From the NCBI RefSeq assembly GCF_002563635.1, contig NZ_PDIZ01000001.1:2914001-2978000 (forward strand): a stretch of 64,000 bases of DNA, written 5' to 3'. Below, piece after piece: positions 44,901 to 60,322 of this stretch (positions are counted from its first letter, which is position 1; every line of letters begins with the position of its first letter). The notes under the pieces are model-generated. The model searched no databases and was not told the origin of the DNA. It saw only the letters and a program-made list of their open reading frames with translations. Origin of the DNA: Bacillus sp. es.036. GTDB lineage: Bacteria > Bacillota > Bacilli > Bacillales > Guptibacillaceae. The translations under genes and the position numbers were made by a program.

Positions 44901-47900
44901 TTACTTATTTAACCATTTGTTAAGCTGATCTTTCACATCTTTGTTTACAGCACTGTCACCACCAAGAACTTTCGCTCCTGATACATCTGTTGTTGTAAAG
45001 TACTTAACAAGATAAGATTCAATCTCTTTCGGGATTTCATCGCTCTTCACAAGGAACATGCTACCTTTATCTTTCACAACAAGTGGTGCAGCTGCAAGGG
45101 CATCCGGGAAGTTCATTCCGTTAGCTACAAACAGTTGATCAGTATTTGTACCAAGCTCTTTATGAATTTCTACAAGGGTACCGAATCGGTTTGCTCCAGC
45201 AAGGCGTTTGGTTGTAAGCGATAATTCATCAGCCATATCGACAACCTCATCAGAAATGACCGCATCTCCACCAAGAACGTAAACCTGCTTTCCAGTCATT
45301 AGTTTCTTCGCATCTTTTGTAAGTGTTTTGCCGTCAGTTAATACAATTGGCATATCATTTGCACCAGCAATAGAGGCAGCACTTAATGCATCAGCAAAGT
45401 TTTTACCAGTTGCAAGGAAAACAGCTTCACTAGTTGAGCCTTTTTCAGCAAGCTTGTTAATAATTTGAACGTTTGTATCATAACGAGTGTCTCCGCTTAG
45501 GCGCTCAATATCAGCTGTACTGACGCCAATGTTTGCAAGTTGTGTATTGACTTTCTTTGAGATGGCATTTTCACCACCAAGAATCATGACATTCTTAGCT
45601 TTAAGGCGAGAAATCTCGTTAAGAACCTCATCAGAAAGCATACCGTCTTTATTAGCAAGTAGGATCGGTGCATCATAAGCACTTGCTAAAGGTCCAGCAG
45701 ATAGTGCATCTGGGAAGTTAAAACCAGTTGCGATAAATACCGTATCAGCAGTAGTTCCTTCTGGATACATTTGCTTGGATACTTCAATAGCTGTTTCAAA
45801 ACGATTGTCTCCAGCTACCACTTCTACCATATCTCCATCTGTCTCAACAGGCACGATTGAAAGCACTTCGCCTGTTGCTTTATCTTTCAAGAAAATTCCA
45901 GCTGTATACTTACCACTATTTTCTGGTGTCGTAATTTTCACATCCGTAGTTGCTTTCTTACCTACACCTAAATCAAAGCTAGACTTACCAGTAACTTCAA
46001 TCTTACCAGCACCTTCTTCTCCAGCTGCGAGCACTTTCGCTTCTGTAACGGAAAGATCGAAATCTGTAGTCTTTTCAACTGTTGAATAACCATCGACCCG
46101 AATTGTATATTCACCATCTGGAAGGTTCTTTACAGTGAATGATTCTTCAGAGTCACCATCTGCATCAATGGCAATATAATCTCCAATAATTTTTCCATCT
46201 TTTGAGCGATAGAGGTATAGGTCAAGATCATCGCCAGCATCGCTTGTATTACCAATGGCTACATCAAGAGAGATGTTATTCTTGAGGTTGATTGTTTTAT
46301 CATATACATTTCCACCTGTTACAGTTTCACGAGATTTTTCCGTTTCAGGCTTACTAAACGCGCCACCCACTACTTCTACTGAACGTTTCGTAGATAAGTA
46401 GTTTTCAAATGTGACAGATTTGGATACTTCGCTTCCCGGCATAGCACTACCAAGTGCAATTCTTCCTGGGCTAGATACAACATCCTGAACGAATGCTTCT
46501 AGTTTAAATTTGTTCATAGCAACGCCGTCTTTTGGAGCCGCAGTACCATAGACCGCTACTTCCCAAACACCAGATTTAGGACTTTTTGCAACATAGTCTT
46601 CTACGCCAATACCATCATAACCAGCATAGCCCTGGAATGCGTTAACTTGATCACCATCAGGATTCATAACAAGCATCCTGACGCGCCCCTGGAATTCATC
46701 GTTTTCTTTAAGAGCTTCTAATGCAAAGCGAACTTCCTGCGCGCCTTCTTCTACATTAAAGAAATAGCTCTTTGTTTTCGAAGACTGAACTTCATCTTCA
46801 TGCGTTAAGCGGAAACGATCTTCAGATGTAAATTCTTCTCCAAGAACGATCGTCTGAAATGAGCGAGCTTCCGCATAAGCCGTATCTGGATCATCAATTA
46901 ATAGAGTACCTGCGTTAACGCCAATATCCATCTTGCTCTTATCATATTTAACAGTCATTTCCTTAAATTCACCCGGTGCAAGTTTGATGCTCTTTACAGA
47001 AGGAGTAAACCAATCAGAATTCGAAGAAATGTTAAGGTTCTTCGTTTCATCCGTTGGGTTTTCAACCATAACCGTTACTTCTTCAGGAACTTCTTTGTTG
47101 CGAACATAAAGTCCTGGTCCACCAGAAACTTTCTCACCGTGGTACACCGTTACATTGACTTCTTTTACTTCATTGATGTAGTGCTTACGAATATATTCAT
47201 AAGCTGCGGGTACATCAATTAAGCCAGCTCCTTCTTGAACACGAGTGTATCCGTCCACATGAACAGCTGTTTGGATAAGGGCTTCACGAGCAAGCTCATA
47301 GTCAAACGGGATGCGATCTTTAAGTGCAGCTTGCTTTAATGTTGCGACAGCTCCAGCTACATATGGAGAAGACATGCTTGTACCTTGAAGAACTTCGTAA
47401 TTACCCAAATGCTCAGGGAAAGAAGCATAAGCAGATCCCGGTGCTACGAAGTCTGGTTTTTGTTGCCCATCTTCTGTTGGACCATTTGCAGAGAAGTACC
47501 AGAGACCTTCACCTTGAACTGGAGAACCATCTGCATTTTTGCCATACGGATAATATCCATATTCTGTAGCCCACATTTTACTGTTAATGTATGCTCCAAT
47601 TGAAAGAGCTTTCACTCCATCACCGGGAGCACCTACGGAATCCACGCCTGGTCCATCATTACCAGCAGAAGTGACATAAATCGTATCGAATAGCTCGCCC
47701 ATGTCTTCAATGATTTTCGCATAAGCGCCTGATCCGTCATTAAGGTCTGGTGAGGAACCTAGACTCATGTTGACAACATCTGTTCCAAATCCACCTAATT
47801 CTTCAGGTACTGCTGCAAGATACATTGCATTCGCGATACTCCACCCATATGTTCTACCAGCAGAGTCAAATACTTTTAAACCATATAAATCTGCACCTGG

Positions 47901-49049
47901 TGCCACTCCTTCAGCAGATACAGCTCCAGTATCATTTTCTCTTTCAGGTCCATTTGCAGCTGTAATACCAGATACGTGTGTACCATGACCGTCCCCATCA
48001 AAGAAAACTGTCGCAACTGGGAATGGATACAATGTTGTATTCGGGAATTGATGCCCTTGATAAGTAGGACTAGGACTTGCAATTCTAAAGTTAGCACCAG
48101 CAACTTCGTCCTCCTGGTTAAGATCCATGTTATCAACGTCGCCTTCACCATATGCTTTTTCGTCGGTGAAATCTTTGTCCTGATCAATATCAATATAGAC
48201 TTGATCATCTACAAGAAGAACATCAAATTGAGCGTCGCCTTTACCATCACCATTTAAATCACGGTAGACAGGCTTACCTTTAGCATCTACATCATAAGAA
48301 GCTGGAAGCAACGAACCGAAATAATATGTATCGTCTTCCGCATCAATACCTTCTGTTTTATATGTCCCTTCTTCTACAGTAATTGAGTCGCCTTCAGCCA
48401 CTTCTTGCTGGAACCAAACGTCCCCTTCTCCAACTGTATCAACGACGCCTTTAATTTTAGAAGAAACAACTTCGCCTTCTTTATTATATTGAGTGAAGGC
48501 TTCGTGACCAGGATCGACACCTGTGTCTATAATACCTACTTTGATTCCTGTTCCATCGTATTTATCGTGAAACTCATCAACACCAGTTGCCGAATGAGTT
48601 TCTTCGGTTGCAGGTTTAACCACATCTTCAGGGTTTTTGACTTTTGGTTTAAGATCAGTGTCTTCACTTGGTCCTTCATCAAGAACGATTTCATTATTCG
48701 CTCCTAGCATGCCAACAGAATCTAGGCGATAGACTTGAAGAACTTTACTTGTTGGTACCTCAGCAAGATACAAGTAGTTGTTTGTATTTTTCTTTACTTT
48801 CACGCCAAGTTTTTCAAGTTCTTTTGTAAGGTCAGGTCCACCGTGTTTTTTTGCAACAATAATTAATTCTTGTTTTGATTGTTCACTTGCAGCAAGTGAG
48901 GCAATCTCTTGCGTAACAGGAAGCTTAAATTTCTTCGTTTCTGATAAAGCTGCCTCAGCTTTTTCTGGATTATACGTCATACCCGCGAATGAAGAAGCAA
49001 CAAGAGAAGCGCCTGCAACAATAGTCAGGACTTTTTTCTTAAACGTCAT
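44901..49049 (-). CDS. Large secreted subtilisin-family protease with three CWB2 repeats
   Basis: A 1382-residue exported protease. Signal peptide about 1-33, I9-like propeptide to about 130, S8 domain about 160-620 with catalytic Asp175 (VGIIDTGVD), His355 (GDGHGTHVSG), oxyanion Asn464 (SAGND) and Ser558 (GTSMSSPYVAG). About 180 residues separate Asp and His, instead of about 35 in subtilisin, with an Asp-rich insert (DLNGDGKGD, IDIDQDKDF) that looks calcium-binding. Beta-sandwich and PPC-type domains follow, then three CWB2 repeats (VAGDNRFETA, RLSGDTRYDT, RLAGANRFGT). GGGGG precedes the ATG. Surface-attached Vpr-like protease is the best description. Confidence 0.92.
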   Translation of the reverse strand: MTFKKKVLTIVAGASLVASSFAGMTYNPEKAEAALSETKKFKLPVTQEIASLAASEQSKQELIIVAKKHGGPDLTKELEKLGVKVKKNTNNYLYLAEVPTSKVLQVYRLDSVGMLGANNEIVLDEGPSEDTDLKPKVKNPEDVVKPATEETHSATGVDEFHDKYDGTGIKVGIIDTGVDPGHEAFTQYNKEGEVVSSKIKGVVDTVGEGDVWFQQEVAEGDSITVEEGTYKTEGIDAEDDTYYFGSLLPASYDVDAKGKPVYRDLNGDGKGDAQFDVLLVDDQVYIDIDQDKDFTDEKAYGEGDVDNMDLNQEDEVAGANFRIASPSPTYQGHQFPNTTLYPFPVATVFFDGDGHGTHVSGITAANGPERENDTGAVSAEGVAPGADLYGLKVFDSAGRTYGWSIANAMYLAAVPEELGGFGTDVVNMSLGSSPDLNDGSGAYAKIIEDMGELFDTIYVTSAGNDGPGVDSVGAPGDGVKALSIGAYINSKMWATEYGYYPYGKNADGSPVQGEGLWYFSANGPTEDGQQKPDFVAPGSAYASFPEHLGNYEVLQGTSMSSPYVAGAVATLKQAALKDRIPFDYELAREALIQTAVHVDGYTRVQEGAGLIDVPAAYEYIRKHYINEVKEVNVTVYHGEKVSGGPGLYVRNKEVPEEVTVMVENPTDETKNLNISSNSDWFTPSVKSIKLAPGEFKEMTVKYDKSKMDIGVNAGTLLIDDPDTAYAEARSFQTIVLGEEFTSEDRFRLTHEDEVQSSKTKSYFFNVEEGAQEVRFALEALKENDEFQGRVRMLVMNPDGDQVNAFQGYAGYDGIGVEDYVAKSPKSGVWEVAVYGTAAPKDGVAMNKFKLEAFVQDVVSSPGRIALGSAMPGSEVSKSVTFENYLSTKRSVEVVGGAFSKPETEKSRETVTGGNVYDKTINLKNNISLDVAIGNTSDAGDDLDLYLYRSKDGKIIGDYIAIDADGDSEESFTVKNLPDGEYTIRVDGYSTVEKTTDFDLSVTEAKVLAAGEEGAGKIEVTGKSSFDLGVGKKATTDVKITTPENSGKYTAGIFLKDKATGEVLSIVPVETDGDMVEVVAGDNRFETAIEVSKQMYPEGTTADTVFIATGFNFPDALSAGPLASAYDAPILLANKDGMLSDEVLNEISRLKAKNVMILGGENAISKKVNTQLANIGVSTADIERLSGDTRYDTNVQIINKLAEKGSTSEAVFLATGKNFADALSAASIAGANDMPIVLTDGKTLTKDAKKLMTGKQVYVLGGDAVISDEVVDMADELSLTTKRLAGANRFGTLVEIHKELGTNTDQLFVANGMNFPDALAAAPLVVKDKGSMFLVKSDEIPKEIESYLVKYFTTTDVSGAKVLGGDSAVNKDVKDQLNKWLNK

Positions 49050-49300
49050 TTAGTAAAATCCCCCTTAATAGTTTGTGAAATCCCTACAATCGATCCCCCT
49101 TTACTCGAAATAATTATAATAATTCACTATTTTCAGTTTAATTATAAAGAGATTAAGAGTCAATCTTTAACTGTTAAAATTGTGAAATTTTTTGATAATT
49201 TGTAGATATTTTAGGACTTTTGTCCATAAAAGCGAAATAATGCCGTAATGATAAAATGCAATGGTTGAATAAAATGTGATTAGTAAAAAAACAATATAAA

Positions 49301-49329
49301 AAAACGCAGCGTCAACGACGCTACGTTTT
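49301..49329 (-). terminator. Terminator after the 696-codon S8 protease frame
   Basis: AAAACG-C-AGCGTC-AAC-GACGCT-A-CGTTTT with one mismatch, A/T-rich flanks. Confidence 0.85.
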
Positions 49330-51401
49330 TAATCATCAAGAAGTTGATCGATATGCCATGCTTTTGTCTCACTAATCGCAGCTGGCCCACCTAAAATACG
49401 GTAGTTACTCACTCCTTGATTATTTAAATATAAGATAGACTTATTTAATGCTTCATTTTCTCTATTAGGATGAACGAGAATGATAGATTGACCTGATCTT
49501 GATGCAGCTGCTCCACCTGTGAGAGCATCTGGAAACTTAAGCCCTGTGGCAAAATAAATCCCATCACTTTCGTCTATCCCAAACCTTAACAAGACTTTAA
49601 AGTTTGTATCAAATCGATCTTCTCCACCGATTCGCTCTGAGTCCAAGGATGGAATTTCAGAGACCACACTTTTACCGATAACTGTTTCGCCGCCGATCAC
49701 ATATGCTTTTTTGGGACCTAGCTCGTTTAAATAGGTTTTCGTATCATCAGGTAAAGAATCACTTTTCGTAAAAAGAACAGGTGATTCAAACCTTGACGCA
49801 AAAGAGGAAATAGACAAAGCATCCGGGAAATTTTCTCCTGAAACGATAAAGGTTTCCGTTGTATTTTCATTTTCAATGATCTTTGCAATTTCAGTAGCCG
49901 TTTCATAACGATTATCTCCAGCGATTCTCGTTGTTTCTATGCCTTCTGATTTCAACTGATCTACAACACCTTCAGGAAGGGCATCTTCCCCACCAATTAA
50001 TAGAACATGATTGGCAGAAAGGCGATTTAATTCATCTAGCAAGCTCTGCGACAAACCACTTTTTTTCGATAATAATATAGGACTTCCTAGTTTAGAAGCA
50101 AGAGGCGAGGCTGCTAAACTATCTGGAAATTCATCAGACCGAGCGAGCACAACGAATTTACCAGTTATACTCTTCCCATTAATTGAAATAGTTTGCTGAT
50201 CTACTGTATTCCAACTTTTTTTGGAAATATCAATGGCAGTTTCGATTGATGTCTCACCATATATACGATTGTACTCTGTCACGCCATTAAATGCAGCTTC
50301 CACATCTAAGATACCACTGCCAAAATCATCAGACCCATTAATGGGTGCTGCTGTTTCTTCTAATAATTTAAACACTTGTTTGTTTGTTAAGTATGATGCG
50401 TAGTCTTTTAGTAAAACTCCTGAGGAAGCTACAATTGGCGACGACATACTTGTACCTTTGTCAAAAGTATATTCTCCATTCAACGTAGTACTATAGATGT
50501 CCGTTCCAGGAGCAGCTAGATCAACAAGAGGGCCATAATTTGAAAAAGGTGCCTTTTCTTTTGTACCTGTCTGAACAGAAGCGACTGCTATTACTTCCGG
50601 ATAGGCTGCTGGAAAAACAACTGCCGAATCGTTGTCGTTACCCGCAGCACCAACCATCAGGATGTCTTTCGCTGCCGCTTCCTCAATTACTGTTCTTAAA
50701 GCAAATGAATTATTATAATTACCAAGACTTAAATTAATTACATCTGCATTATGATCAATCGCATAGCGTATCCCTTCTACAACTGTTGATAGATTTCCAG
50801 TACCGTTCTCCGTCACTTTTATCGGCATAATCGAAACCCCACGTGCCGGAGAAGCAATCCCGATTTGGTTGTTTGTTACTGCTCCAATAAGCCCAGCAAC
50901 TTTTGTGCCATGCCCATCTAAATCTTGAACCGATTGACTTCCATTTACAAGGTTAACCCCAGAAATGAGATTGGCTTTTAGGTCTGGATGAGTAAGATCA
51001 ACCCCCGAATCTATTACTGCAACCTTTGAAGAACTTTTTTGATTACTGAGAAGCTCCCATGCATTCAGTAAATTGATTTGATCCATCCACGGGTTTTGAT
51101 ATGAAAGCAATGCATCGTCTGGGAGACCCTCTCCCATTAAATACACTGGTTGATCTTTTTCTACATACTTCACTTCACGGTTAGACTTCAAACGATCAAT
51201 CGTTTCGTCGACTTCCTGTTTTGGAACTTCAATCACTTCCACTTTTGTGGAATATTCGGATTGCCTTGAGGGACTTTTCGCTTCACCATATGTAACAAGG
51301 ATACGCTCTGTTTCTTGATCAGATTGAGCTTCAGAGACTATGGGACCCAAAGAAAATAACAGAATAAAGAACATGAAAAGAATAATAGTTTTACTTTTCA
51401 G
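49329..51401 (-). CDS. Secreted subtilisin-family protease with CWB2 repeats, probable CTG start
   Basis: A 690-residue exported S8 protease (numbering from 51401). Signal peptide KSKTIILFMFFILLFSLG, a propeptide, then Asp131 (VAVIDSGVD), His164 (LDGHGTKVAG), Asn255 (AAGND) and Ser318 (GTSMSSPIVA), and three CWB2 repeats of which the first is degenerate (YGETSIETA) and the others are RIAGDNRYETA and RIGGEDRFDT. The only upstream ATG (51419) has no ribosome site; instead GGAAGAGGTG lies six bases before a CTG at 51401, giving a compact signal peptide. It lies next to the RRNPP regulator, so peptide-controlled expression is possible. Confidence 0.88.
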   Translation of the reverse strand: MKSKTIILFMFFILLFSLGPIVSEAQSDQETERILVTYGEAKSPSRQSEYSTKVEVIEVPKQEVDETIDRLKSNREVKYVEKDQPVYLMGEGLPDDALLSYQNPWMDQINLLNAWELLSNQKSSSKVAVIDSGVDLTHPDLKANLISGVNLVNGSQSVQDLDGHGTKVAGLIGAVTNNQIGIASPARGVSIMPIKVTENGTGNLSTVVEGIRYAIDHNADVINLSLGNYNNSFALRTVIEEAAAKDILMVGAAGNDNDSAVVFPAAYPEVIAVASVQTGTKEKAPFSNYGPLVDLAAPGTDIYSTTLNGEYTFDKGTSMSSPIVASSGVLLKDYASYLTNKQVFKLLEETAAPINGSDDFGSGILDVEAAFNGVTEYNRIYGETSIETAIDISKKSWNTVDQQTISINGKSITGKFVVLARSDEFPDSLAASPLASKLGSPILLSKKSGLSQSLLDELNRLSANHVLLIGGEDALPEGVVDQLKSEGIETTRIAGDNRYETATEIAKIIENENTTETFIVSGENFPDALSISSFASRFESPVLFTKSDSLPDDTKTYLNELGPKKAYVIGGETVIGKSVVSEIPSLDSERIGGEDRFDTNFKVLLRFGIDESDGIYFATGLKFPDALTGGAAASRSGQSIILVHPNRENEALNKSILYLNNQGVSNYRILGGPAAISETKAWHIDQLLDD

Positions 51402-51567
51402 TTGTGACACCTCTTCCATGATTGATTGTTATACGCTTTACTTTCACAAGTTTATAACGAATCTTTCGACAAATCACTAGAATAGTATCACATTAATAGT
51501 TTGAAAAAAATGGTTTTAAGTGGGGAGGAAGTCTCATTTTTTTAGAGGTTGCTTGGAAAAAGAGGGG

Positions 51568-51796: not shown

Positions 51797-51858
51797 GTTG
51801 GGAAAGTAATCTCAAAAACTGGCGATTAAACGCTATAAATTCGTCCATATTTCCCAAC
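51797..51858. repeat. Inverted repeat GTTGGGAAA...TTTCCCAAC upstream of the RRNPP regulator
   Basis: Two perfect nine-base arms at 51797-51805 and 51850-51858, 53 bases centre to centre (about five helical turns). They flank the PlcR-box-like palindrome on its left and right. Could be paired operator half-sites. Confidence 0.45.
51834..51849. promoter_or_regulatory. PlcR-box-like palindrome upstream of the RRNPP regulator
   Basis: TATAAATTCGTCCATA fits the PlcR box TATGNANNNNTNCATA at all defined positions except the fourth (A for G). It lies 84 bases before the regulator ATG. plcR genes are autoregulated through such a box, so self-control by the regulator next door is a reasonable inference. 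Confidence 0.5.
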
Positions 51859-51885: not shown

Positions 51886-51932
51886 TTTTAGTAAACTGTA
51901 ATCAAATAGTTCTAGGAGAAAGGAAGCAAAGA

Positions 51933-53195
51933 ATGATTGGAGCAAAAATCCGATACTTCAGGCAGATGAAAGGCATCACACAGGAACAACTCGCTTCCGG
52001 AATCTGTTCTATTCCGTATTTAAGTAAGATTGAACACGGTCTTGCCCAGCCAAGTGAAGAACTTGTTGGACATCTTTGTAAAGAGTTAGGCGTCTCCCTA
52101 GATCAGGTTGATGATGAGGATAAAATGAATAAACTTCACAATGATCTAGATTCCTGGTACAAAGAAATGCGTCTAAGAAACTTTGATGAAGTTGTTAGTT
52201 ACAAAAAGCTGATAGACGAAGAAATTGATGGCGTGGAAGATCCTGATATGCTCACGAAATATCTTCTTTTATCGTTTAGGTATCATATTTTATTTAGAGA
52301 AACTGATAAAGCAAATGATATTCTTGAGAGATTGTATCATGTACAAGAAAGACTATCTGAGCAACTTGAATTCTATTATTTTTACTTTCTAGGATTATAC
52401 TACTACCAAAATAGTAAATTTAAAGAAGCTGGTGAACAGTACAAAAAAGCTCATTTTCTTCTTACTTCGATGAAATCAAATTCTGCAGAATGGGCGGAAT
52501 TTTATTATCAACAAGCGCTTGTACACAATCGTCTTAGTCAAATTACTATATCTAATAATCTTGCAATAAAATGCCTTGAAATGTTTAATAAAGAATACAA
52601 TTTCAAAAGAGCATCAGACACTGAAATTCTTTTAGGAGTAAACAATAGAGTTATCTTAAATTATGGAGAAGCCGAACATCACTTTCAAAACGCTCAAAAA
52701 TATGCGGAATCTTTTAATGATAAACGACTTAAGAGTATTATTTATCATGACCTTGGTTATGTATACTCCTGCCAAAACGAATCGGATTTGGCTTTAAAAT
52801 ACTATCAATTAGCTTTACAAAATAGTGAAGTTCACGAAATTGAAGATCGAGCTAAGACATTATATTTAATTGCTTCAGAGTATATTAAAAGTGGTAACTT
52901 TGATCTCGCTCGTAAATCAATTGATGATGGTATGGAGCTAGTTACAAAAACAGAGTACCTAGAATATATCCACCATTTTAAAATCTTGATTTTAAAACTT
53001 AGTAGCAAGCAGAGTGAAAATCAAGAGGTAATCCTTAAAGATGCAGTTGAATACTTTGAGGAAAAAACACGTTGGTACTATGTTTCAGAGTACGGTGAAA
53101 TGCTGGCAGACCATTATTTTAATAATGGCCAATATAAAAATTCAAGTTTTTATTTTAGGTTAGCGAACGATGCCAGGAAAAAAATCATGAATTAG
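51933..53195 (+). CDS. RRNPP-family peptide-responsive regulator (NprR/PlcR-like)
   Basis: A 420-residue cytosolic regulator. Residues 1-60 are an XRE helix-turn-helix (IGAKIRYFRQMKGITQEQLA...YLSKIEHG); residues about 70-415 are a run of TPR-like helical repeats (FYYFYFLGLYYYQNSKFKEAGEQYKKA; IIYHDLGYVYSCQNESDLALKYYQLAL). Length and layout match NprR (about 420) better than PlcR (about 285). Such proteins bind a re-imported peptide in the TPR groove and then change DNA binding. A secreted-peptide gene follows after 14 bases. AGGAGAAAGGAAG lies before the ATG. The flanking secreted proteases are plausible targets. Confidence 0.9.
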   Translation: MIGAKIRYFRQMKGITQEQLASGICSIPYLSKIEHGLAQPSEELVGHLCKELGVSLDQVDDEDKMNKLHNDLDSWYKEMRLRNFDEVVSYKKLIDEEIDGVEDPDMLTKYLLLSFRYHILFRETDKANDILERLYHVQERLSEQLEFYYFYFLGLYYYQNSKFKEAGEQYKKAHFLLTSMKSNSAEWAEFYYQQALVHNRLSQITISNNLAIKCLEMFNKEYNFKRASDTEILLGVNNRVILNYGEAEHHFQNAQKYAESFNDKRLKSIIYHDLGYVYSCQNESDLALKYYQLALQNSEVHEIEDRAKTLYLIASEYIKSGNFDLARKSIDDGMELVTKTEYLEYIHHFKILILKLSSKQSENQEVILKDAVEYFEEKTRWYYVSEYGEMLADHYFNNGQYKNSSFYFRLANDARKKIMN

Positions 53196-53209
53196 AAAGG
53201 GAGAAAAAC

Positions 53210-53347
53210 ATGAAAAAGTTAATTGTAAATGCACTACTTATTACTAGCTTAGTAGGAGTTGTTACTCTAGGTAACCACGACAGAGTACCTGATTCTCACG
53301 ACAGAGTGCCTGACTCAAGCCCATCAAAAACTGAAATTCATATCTAA
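53210..53347 (+). CDS. Secreted signalling peptide precursor with tandem heptapeptide
   Basis: A 45-residue gene. MKKLIVNALLITSLVGVVTL is a Sec-type signal; the exported rest begins GN and carries HDRVPDS twice in direct succession (residues 23-29 and 30-36), then SPSKTEIHI. AAAGGGAG precedes the ATG, which lies 14 bases after the regulator stop, and a strong terminator follows directly. Position, size and architecture are those of NprX/PapR/Phr precursors. The mature signal is probably within HDRVPDS; the exact ends cannot be read. Its Arg two residues into DRVPDS recalls Phr peptides such as DRVGA. Confidence 0.85.
   Translation: MKKLIVNALLITSLVGVVTLGNHDRVPDSHDRVPDSSPSKTEIHI
53276..53317 (+). 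repeat. Tandem 21-base repeat encoding HDRVPDS twice
   Basis: Two adjacent 21-base units (53276-53296, 53297-53317) differ at three bases, all third codon positions (GTA/GTG, GAT/GAC, TCT/TCA), so the peptide is unchanged. This pattern indicates an old duplication kept by selection on the peptide. Confidence 0.95.
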
Positions 53348-53353
53348 TACTCT

Positions 53354-53380
53354 AAACCCGGCTCATTTTAGCCGGGTTTT
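53354..53380 (+). terminator. Terminator after the signalling peptide gene
   Basis: AAACCCGGCT-CATTTT-AGCCGGGTTT followed by TTT; seven bases after the peptide stop. Confidence 0.93.
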
Positions 53381-59750: not shown

Positions 59751-60049
59751 TTAGACCAACCTCCCTTCCACCTCTAGTCTTGTCTATCTTGATTTTTTAA
59801 TGCGTAAATGGGTAAAAAAGCAGATCGTATTTACTGTAAAACGATTATTATTTTAATCCAGACGGTTCCATCCGACATTGGGAAACCTGCTTCACAAAAT
59901 CTTAATAAAGGAAAGCAGTTTATCAGTATTTTCCCAATATACACGATAAACAGAATAGGTTATACTTAGAATTGAAGTCATTTTTCGACAATTTTTACTT
60001 TTTCATGACATCGTTTACTTTATGACTACTTATAAATGTTCGAATCGTA
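59751..60049. other. Intergenic region upstream of the cyclic-di-GMP riboswitch
   Basis: AT-rich, no open frame with a ribosome site. It should hold the promoter of the riboswitch transcript; TATAAA at 60031-60036 is a possible -10, but no convincing -35 at normal spacing was found. Confidence 0.45.
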
Positions 60050-60184: not shown

Positions 60185-60322
60185 ATGAAAGAATCATGGC
60201 TAACGCCTGAAGAAATCCAATATCGTAGACAGCGTAAGGAGAAGATGATTTATCTTTTGCTACCTGTGTCTGCTATCGTCATTGGAGCGGCTATTGCTTT
60301 TCTCACGCAAATGACTTACTAA
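60185..60322 (+). CDS. Small single-span membrane protein under cyclic-di-GMP riboswitch, 45 residues
   Basis: MKESWLTPEEIQYRRQRKEK (basic, amphipathic head) then one hydrophobic span MIYLLLPVSAIVIGAAIAFL and TQMTY. It is a paralogue of the protein at 59502-59633. GGGGGAG lies eight bases before the ATG. A longer reading frame from 60074 runs through the riboswitch and is rejected. Single-span peptides of this kind often modulate a larger membrane partner; the partner is unknown. Expression is linked to cyclic di-GMP by the aptamer upstream. Confidence 0.85.
   Translation: MKESWLTPEEIQYRRQRKEKMIYLLLPVSAIVIGAAIAFLTQMTY

Follow-up and report, generated by a model that had tools for sequence, protein, structure and literature searches.

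The window, by which we mean the whole 64,000-nucleotide stretch of DNA analysed here (G000:C1:2914001-2978000, where G000 is the window's own genome of 4.34 Mb), contains a receptor gene followed by a gene for a tandem-repeat pheromone precursor, and genome comparison shows that the two are conserved and inherited together. The same comparison shows that the receptor gene is preceded by an inverted bipartite operator of 60 bp, which recurs at a fixed -10 distance before secreted-protease genes. With a probability of roughly 0.86 we read the locus as a one-component quorum-sensing operon of the NprR-NprX type, in which a tandem precursor would be exported, matured outside the cell and re-imported, and a peptide-induced tetramer of the receptor would activate secreted proteases and probably its own operon. 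The relevant features of the window are the following.

51798..51857 (no strand): operator TTGGGAAA-N44-TTTCCCAA ahead of the receptor gene, from alignment and genome scan
51892..51897 (+): putative -10 TAAACT of the receptor operon, at +35 after the box, 11 bp further than in the targets
51933..53195 (+): NprR-type receptor of 420 aa with HTH, RapH_N and TPR array, from ORF, Pfam, family profile and AF2
53198..53203 (+): ribosome-binding site AGGGAG of the peptide gene, from sequence
53210..53347 (+): secreted pheromone precursor of 45 aa, from ORF, conservation and pN/pS
53276..53296 (+): first HDRVPDS copy, from sequence
53297..53317 (+): second HDRVPDS copy, from sequence
53354..53379 (+): intrinsic-terminator-like stem-loop with T-run, from a terminator scan with a chance rate of 0.9 such sites per shuffle
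59878..59937 (no strand): second operator TTGGGAAA-N44-TTTCCCAA in the window, from genome scan
59961..59966 (+): -10 hexamer TATACT, at +24 after the second operator
60185..60322 (+): predicted target with its operator at 59878, a 45-aa single-span membrane peptide of no known family

Pfam identifies HTH_3 (2.1e-10), TPR_2 (5.2e-10) and RapH_N (7.6e-7) in the regulator, in agreement with the 420-residue HTH-TPR regulator that the first-pass annotation of this DNA had described; for neither regulator nor peptide did an NCBIfam model score above cut-off. The closest named relatives of the regulator found in a contig search (4 loci) are those of Pseudalkalibacillus hwajinpoensis AmN0-1 (98%) and SaN0-1 (95%), and on this basis the genus is taken to be Pseudalkalibacillus. 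When a profile of 40 homologues was compared with the PDB, NprR was the best match (4.8e-61) and Rap the next; taken as a single sequence, the receptor scores better with Rap (2.7e-18) than with NprR (2.8e-11). The AF2 model, built from five sequences and weak (mean pLDDT 64.6, much of the N-terminal half of low confidence), has 18 helices after the HTH, in residues 62-419, which is the number needed for nine TPRs and moderately supports such an array. Foldseek with this weak model retrieved RapI and RapH, then NprR, at modest TM-scores of 0.45-0.54. PlcR is absent from the 43 PDB matches of the family profile and from the 50 Foldseek matches listed.

The receptor is NprR-type, with HTH, RapH_N and nine-TPR array, and belongs to clan B (QssR, NprR, Rap) of the structural phylogeny in PMC12700828, which, as all papers given here by PMC identifier, is cited from excerpts. 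Where it had been called NprR/PlcR-like, the NprR half stands on the domains and the profile match, and the PlcR half is contradicted by the RapH_N domain and the 18 TPR-region helices, as the PlcR fold has five TPRs (PMC12700828). PlcR-PapR likewise combines an HTH-TPR regulator with a secreted peptide gene, and PlcR controls secreted enzymes. The 16-bp PlcR box, however, shows no excess in the window, where matches occur at the chance level (16 with at most one mismatch, 18.7 expected); a single one-mismatch match, at 51834-51849, falls in the operator spacer. NprR-NprX of the Bacillus cereus group shares with the present pair the HTH, the RapH_N or three-helix region, the nine-TPR array and a Sec-type propeptide gene directly downstream. 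Its tetramer residues Y223 and F225 align with receptor Y222 and F224 in a profile alignment read by eye, and both are invariant in five close orthologues; the residues are present, and the tetramer is predicted from them. The NprR peptide contacts H201, N306 and D309 correspond to R200, D305 and K308 (alignment by eye, within about one residue), changes which would fit another peptide, yet are a difference from NprR. The roles of these NprR residues are taken from PMC4970707.

Rap-Phr systems such as Phr105 and Phr3T have the same TPR architecture and several pheromone copies per precursor (PMC11343458), but Rap proteins lack an HTH and act on response regulators, whereas the present receptor contains HTH_3 at 2.1e-10. 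It might nonetheless work mainly as Rap does, the peptide-free form inhibiting the phosphorelay at Spo0F and DNA binding being secondary. This would suit the RapH_N domain and the presence of E186 and Y222 as equivalents of the RapH Spo0F contacts E137 and Y175. The Spo0F contacts are ambiguous: one of the other two is non-conserved in either alignment register (P104/F115 or D103/S114), yet the profile alignment pairs D103 with NprR D107. As, moreover, the HTH is the best-conserved part of the regulator gene across the genus and operators are numerous, a Rap-like main output is improbable.

The peptide gene begins 14 bases behind the regulator (gap 53196-53209), and the gap contains AAAGGGAG ahead of the ATG. 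Its product, MKKLIVNALLITSLVGVVTLGN-HDRVPDS-HDRVPDS-SPSKTEIHI, starts with a KK n-region and a hydrophobic core and ends in a hydrophilic tail, the signal peptide being judged by eye and by hydropathy; it has no match in Pfam. The first-pass annotation was accurate as to the 14-base gap, the gene's own ribosome site, the signal peptide, the hydrophilic tail and the terminator. It had proposed a single heptapeptide HDRVPDS as the signal; instead, the precursor holds two copies, head to tail. Over four separate pairs of sequences the 113 synonymous sites show 25 changes and the 403 nonsynonymous sites show 11, and the resulting pN/pS of 0.12 indicates that the peptide gene is under purifying selection and rules out a chance small ORF.

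A full-length regulator orthologue (58-100% identical) occurs in 14/14 genus genomes, G000 included, and in each of the 14 a secreted small ORF lies 13-18 bp behind it. Conservation of the small frame in close relatives, which had been named as one point on which the pair could fail, is thus complete in the genus. The pheromone core in the genus is [NDQ]H[DE][RK][VFL]P[DEQ]S, from which one G003 and one G011-type start deviate. By hand count over the 14 genomes, eight have two core copies, five have one and one has three; the sister genus G014 also has three. Domains, gene order and conservation together support the earlier proposal of an RRNPP receptor-propeptide pair in the NprR-NprX layout.

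Beyond the genus, a regulator homologue at E<=1e-20 is found in 240/397 order genomes. For comparison we used 117 regulator loci, consisting of the genus and the best-scoring order matches, taken from the top of the list and not drawn at random; four of the regulators are Rap-like, without HTH, and L023 (no regulator frame) and L022 (<100 bits) stand outside these counts. A credible secreted ORF follows the regulator at 96 loci, and the remaining 21 have none under the score used. At least two copies of a core of 5-7 residues (at most one mismatch) are present in 44/96 precursors, with up to nine copies, compared with a mean of 11.75 and a maximum of 17 for shuffled tails. D or E stands within three residues ahead of a proline in 90/96 precursors, a count made without a chance control.

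Repeated pheromones have been described before. NprR is known from 21 genera, and 17/17 atypically large NprR propeptides contain repeated pheromones (PMC9765709); some nprX genes show duplications (PMC5199041), and extracellular proteases process tandem or duplicated Phr precursors (PMC11343458). Since such repeats are already published for both NprR and Rap systems, the kind is known, and of the new specificity group that had been suggested we retain the specificity: the HDRVPDS core is absent from characterised systems in the excerpted literature, and differs from the NprX pheromone SKPDIVG, so that there is a fair case for a new pheromone specificity group of the known NprR-type kind. PMC10075063 counts 11 known and 21 candidate receptor subfamilies. 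A count of the name Alkalihalobacillus gives 0 for the main text of both PMC10075063 and PMC9765709, the supplementary tables of which may contain the species. Three papers mention both Pseudalkalibacillus and quorum sensing, and by title and the beginning of the abstract none of them is on this system.

DNA identity along the locus, measured against G000, is a mosaic. In G011, G013 and G004 it amounts to 95-97% in the 100 bp upstream of the gene and 92-93% in the HTH segment (0-99), then 56-61% at 200-299 and 46-51% at 1300-1399, in the pheromone gene, and again 84-90% at 1500-1599, in the next gene (HAD). The drop is shared by G003 (86%, 55%, 52%, 83%). G008, close to G000 by polC, has 95-98% at 0-299, 58-89% at 300-1399 and 94-99% from 1500 onwards. 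The polC tree groups G004 with G010, G003 with G002 (100/100) and G011 with G005 (98/98); the TPR tree joins G003, G004, G011 and G013 on one long branch, the program flagging G003 as a long row. In AU tests a clade of these four genomes (HEKFP pherotype) is rejected by polC (p 2e-61) and HAD (6e-91), and the TPR data reject G004 with G010 (1.6e-7), G005 with G011 (1.5e-6) and G008 with G000/G007/G009 (1e-54). The pherotypes, in groups named after the pheromones had been seen, require four changes on the polC and HAD trees and one on the TPR tree. Vertical descent of the pherotypes is ruled out by these trees and tests, and from the alignments we conclude that sensor domain and pheromone are replaced together, as one block, within a fixed locus whose HTH and flanks stay.

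The agr and comQXPA loci also swap sensor and signal as a block at a fixed locus and keep the output; in the present case the breakpoint lies inside one gene, between HTH and sensor domain. It is very improbable that the small ORF encodes some other secreted peptide, for instance an antimicrobial or immunity peptide, that merely travels with the regulator. The 21/117 regulator loci without a credible secreted ORF could be read that way, yet the position of the ORF, the tandem core repeats well above those of shuffled tails and the co-exchange with the sensor domain all argue for a pheromone.

The window also encodes, at 44901-51419, two large secreted subtilases that contain CWB2 repeats; their genes diverge from that of the receptor. 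G007 and G009 share the G000 cassette and have a protease region of another type upstream. As their subtilase cluster is only 45-56% identical, despite receptors that are 98-99.8% identical, this cluster, too, seems to have been exchanged.

In the alignment of 15 genomes the boxes TTGGGAAA and TTTCCCAA are kept in 15/15, with one mismatch in G008 (TTAGGAAA) and a spacing of N45 in G014, and the spacer between them has diverged. A scan of 14 genus genomes for TTGGGAAA-N28..58-TTTCCCAA gave 78 sites, 4-9 per genome, and the reversed pattern used as control occurred in 0/14. For the 75 sites that were listed (three more were counted only) the spacers are N44 (69), N43 (2), N51 (1) and N29 (3). 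G000 has four N44 operators; its N29 site sits inside a 211-aa reading frame and was rejected. With two mismatches allowed at N44, G000 yields six sites, two of them added, against four for the reversed control; such sites are indistinguishable from chance, and only perfect sites were therefore used. On contig 3 of G000 (635,284 bp) the operators at 107985-108044 and 599145-599204 adjoin the 322-aa protein and the M4 protease. Over 50 distinct N44 sites (orthologues included, both directions) the spacer shows A/T patches at 18-21, a TTAA centre at 29-32 and a mirror patch. The patches are about 11 bp apart, which suggests that the operator spacer DNA is bent.

Among the 117 regulators, 48 have a perfect box pair within 320 bp upstream, with spacers of 44 (23), 45 (20), 43 (4) or 46 (1). 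At least three sites are found in 45/98 order genomes with a regulator match at E<=1e-45 and in 0/299 others, at least two in 58/98 vs 3/299 and at least one in 76/98 vs 28/299, these classes having been set after the regulator score list was seen and the genomes being related. The reversed operator occurs once in each of 26/397 order genomes. Three SKLE regulators, with HTH SKLE instead of SKIE (L095, L107 and L146, from G071, G268 and G327), have TTGAGAAA..TTTCTCAA upstream, a variant changed symmetrically in both boxes, and the other SKLE regulators of the set are without it; SKLE/SKIE is a possible specificity determinant for the boxes. When the variant pair was sought in 15 genomes, there were three in G071 (all N43/N44), the own promoter's pair and one N31 each in G268 and G327, one in G142 (N45) and one each in G003 (N42), G012 (N41) and G096 (N32).

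It is quite unlikely, although the pair would still be real, that TTGGGAAA-N44-TTTCCCAA belongs to a different, unlinked regulator of the proteases and of this operon. Such a regulator would account for the 69/117 homologous regulators lacking a perfect upstream site and for the site in 28/299 genomes that lack a close homologue. The site rate in these 299, however, is 0.10 per genome, similar to the 0.065 of the reversed control, and none of the 299 reaches three sites. Moreover, 48 regulators from several families have the site immediately ahead of their gene, and in three regulators symmetric box variants accompany the HTH change. TTGGGAAA-N44-TTTCCCAA is, judging by its placement and distribution, very likely the receptor's operator.

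According to PMC4147580, a review of 2014, NprR-NprX binds a region spanning the nprA -35 and the recognised sequence was still to be determined; the excerpt of PMC7756075 gives no NprR motif. A published NprR operator was found in none of the open-licence matches listed, and subscription papers, which lie mostly outside these, may contain one. The SSKPDIVG pattern (canonical NprR, nprA promoter) had 0 matches in 398 class genomes, and a search of IMG/VR for the operator module gave one match, inside the coding frame of L233, which was judged to be chance.

Predicted targets, of about seven types, were collected from 20 promoters in G000, G001, G003 and G004. With each promoter oriented by its gene, TANNNT stands at exactly +24 (23 bp gap) after the proximal box in 20/20, against a mean of 0.29 and a maximum of 3 at offsets 61-290 and a maximum of 5 at other offsets up to 60; a consensus -35 was not seen in these promoters, where the box occupies the -35 place. 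The predicted targets include an M4 protease beside the operator in all four genomes (Pfam checked for L200), to be compared with the nprA target of NprR-NprX, whose binding at the -35 region would be a further point in common. They also include S8 proteases in two lengths (Pfam checked for L203 and L204), a 304-322-aa protein without family, the 45-aa membrane peptide at 60185-60322 and one aimR. L209 has permease genes like those of oligopeptide permeases, of which one of two is over the Pfam cut-off and none over that of NCBIfam, with weak scores. The CWB2 subtilases were rejected as targets of the operator at 51798: that strand has no TANNNT at +24, and the sequence on the upstream side of the operator differs in type in G007 and G009.

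The full module (operator with -10 at +24) is found in 65/397 order genomes and 19/135 genera, and the reversed control in 0/397. Thirty module loci were fetched. A subtilase-like gene, recognised by length and N-terminus, follows the module in 23 (19 of 373-383 aa, four longer and cut at the locus end), and 6/6 products checked outside the genus set are Peptidase_S8. Three others precede a 300-aa protein, one of which is 30% identical to the 322-aa protein over 257 aa, one precedes a DJ-1/PfpI gene and three no clear gene. In L251-L254 (G187, G278, G212 and G163) the operator separates an NprR-type regulator from a subtilase gene that diverges from it. TANNNT occurs at +24 in both directions, so that this is likely a bidirectional module.

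The fixed -10 distance and the box in place of the -35 form an activator layout. The sign could also be the opposite, with the peptide-free receptor repressing and the pheromone releasing, or with the receptor repressing its own operon and activating the others. RRNPP members of either sign are described in reviews, as far as their excerpts go, and in the own promoter the distance from the box to the putative -10 exceeds that of the targets by 11 bp. Yet the targets have the layout of activated promoters, and NprR binds DNA only with its peptide (PMC4970707); we regard the opposite sign, in either form, as unlikely.

Under the activating reading, the precursor would be exported by Sec and processed extracellularly. 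An oligopeptide permease would re-import the resulting short peptide, which would include HDRVPDS, and the TPR groove would bind it. It is plausible that the target proteases in turn mature the tandem precursor. Binding of the peptide would lead to a receptor tetramer touching two boxes 52 bp, or about five helical turns, apart on A/T-phased and probably bent DNA. A tetramer binding two DNA sites was proposed for NprR in 2016 (PMC4970707). With the proximal box replacing the -35, the complex would activate the genes of secreted M4 and S8 proteases from sigma-A-type promoters, and probably its own operon as well. A block exchange of sensor domain and pheromone would shift the specificity, with HTH and operators staying as they are.

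Other peptide systems were met in related genomes. G004 contig 2 (L216:1215-2560 / L234:7906-9477) has an arbitrium-type receptor gene, over cut-off with NF038310 lysogeny_AimR (2.4e-101), the promoter of which is the exact module TTGGGAAA-N44-TTTCCCAA with the -10 at +24. This aimR, present in 1/14 genus genomes, is accompanied by an AimP-like ORF ending in DPGGGMG, and its neighbours (topoisomerase III, reverse transcriptase, ArdC-like, helicase) look plasmid- or ICE-like. In G001 (L021/L067, contig 1:1357763-1358995) there is a paralogous HTH-TPR regulator, 32% identical, with an overlapping downstream 81-aa ORF that contains DELYPDP three times; the operator is absent upstream. From its layout we take this to be a second tandem-pheromone system.

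A wider reading, to which we lean with less assurance than to the operon itself, is that a large NprR-type branch has TTGGGAAA-N43..46-TTTCCCAA plus a -10 at +24 as its operator-promoter module, where a pheromone-closed tetramer would bridge two boxes separated by about five turns of bent DNA. Across genera, the protease regulon would be kept as sensor and signal swap, and mobile elements would tap in, as may be the case for aimR in one genome.

With this pair the NprR-type systems gain a pheromone specificity group. The operator is of greater value: for NprR-NprX the bound sequence was not precisely determined in 2014 (PMC4147580), whereas here a 60-bp operator is proposed, the rigid bipartite form and fixed -10 of which make the tetramer or two-site model (PMC4970707) directly testable. 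Block exchange may be a way to change the signal and keep what is controlled, and with the operator it would become possible to read many receptors' regulons from genome sequences.
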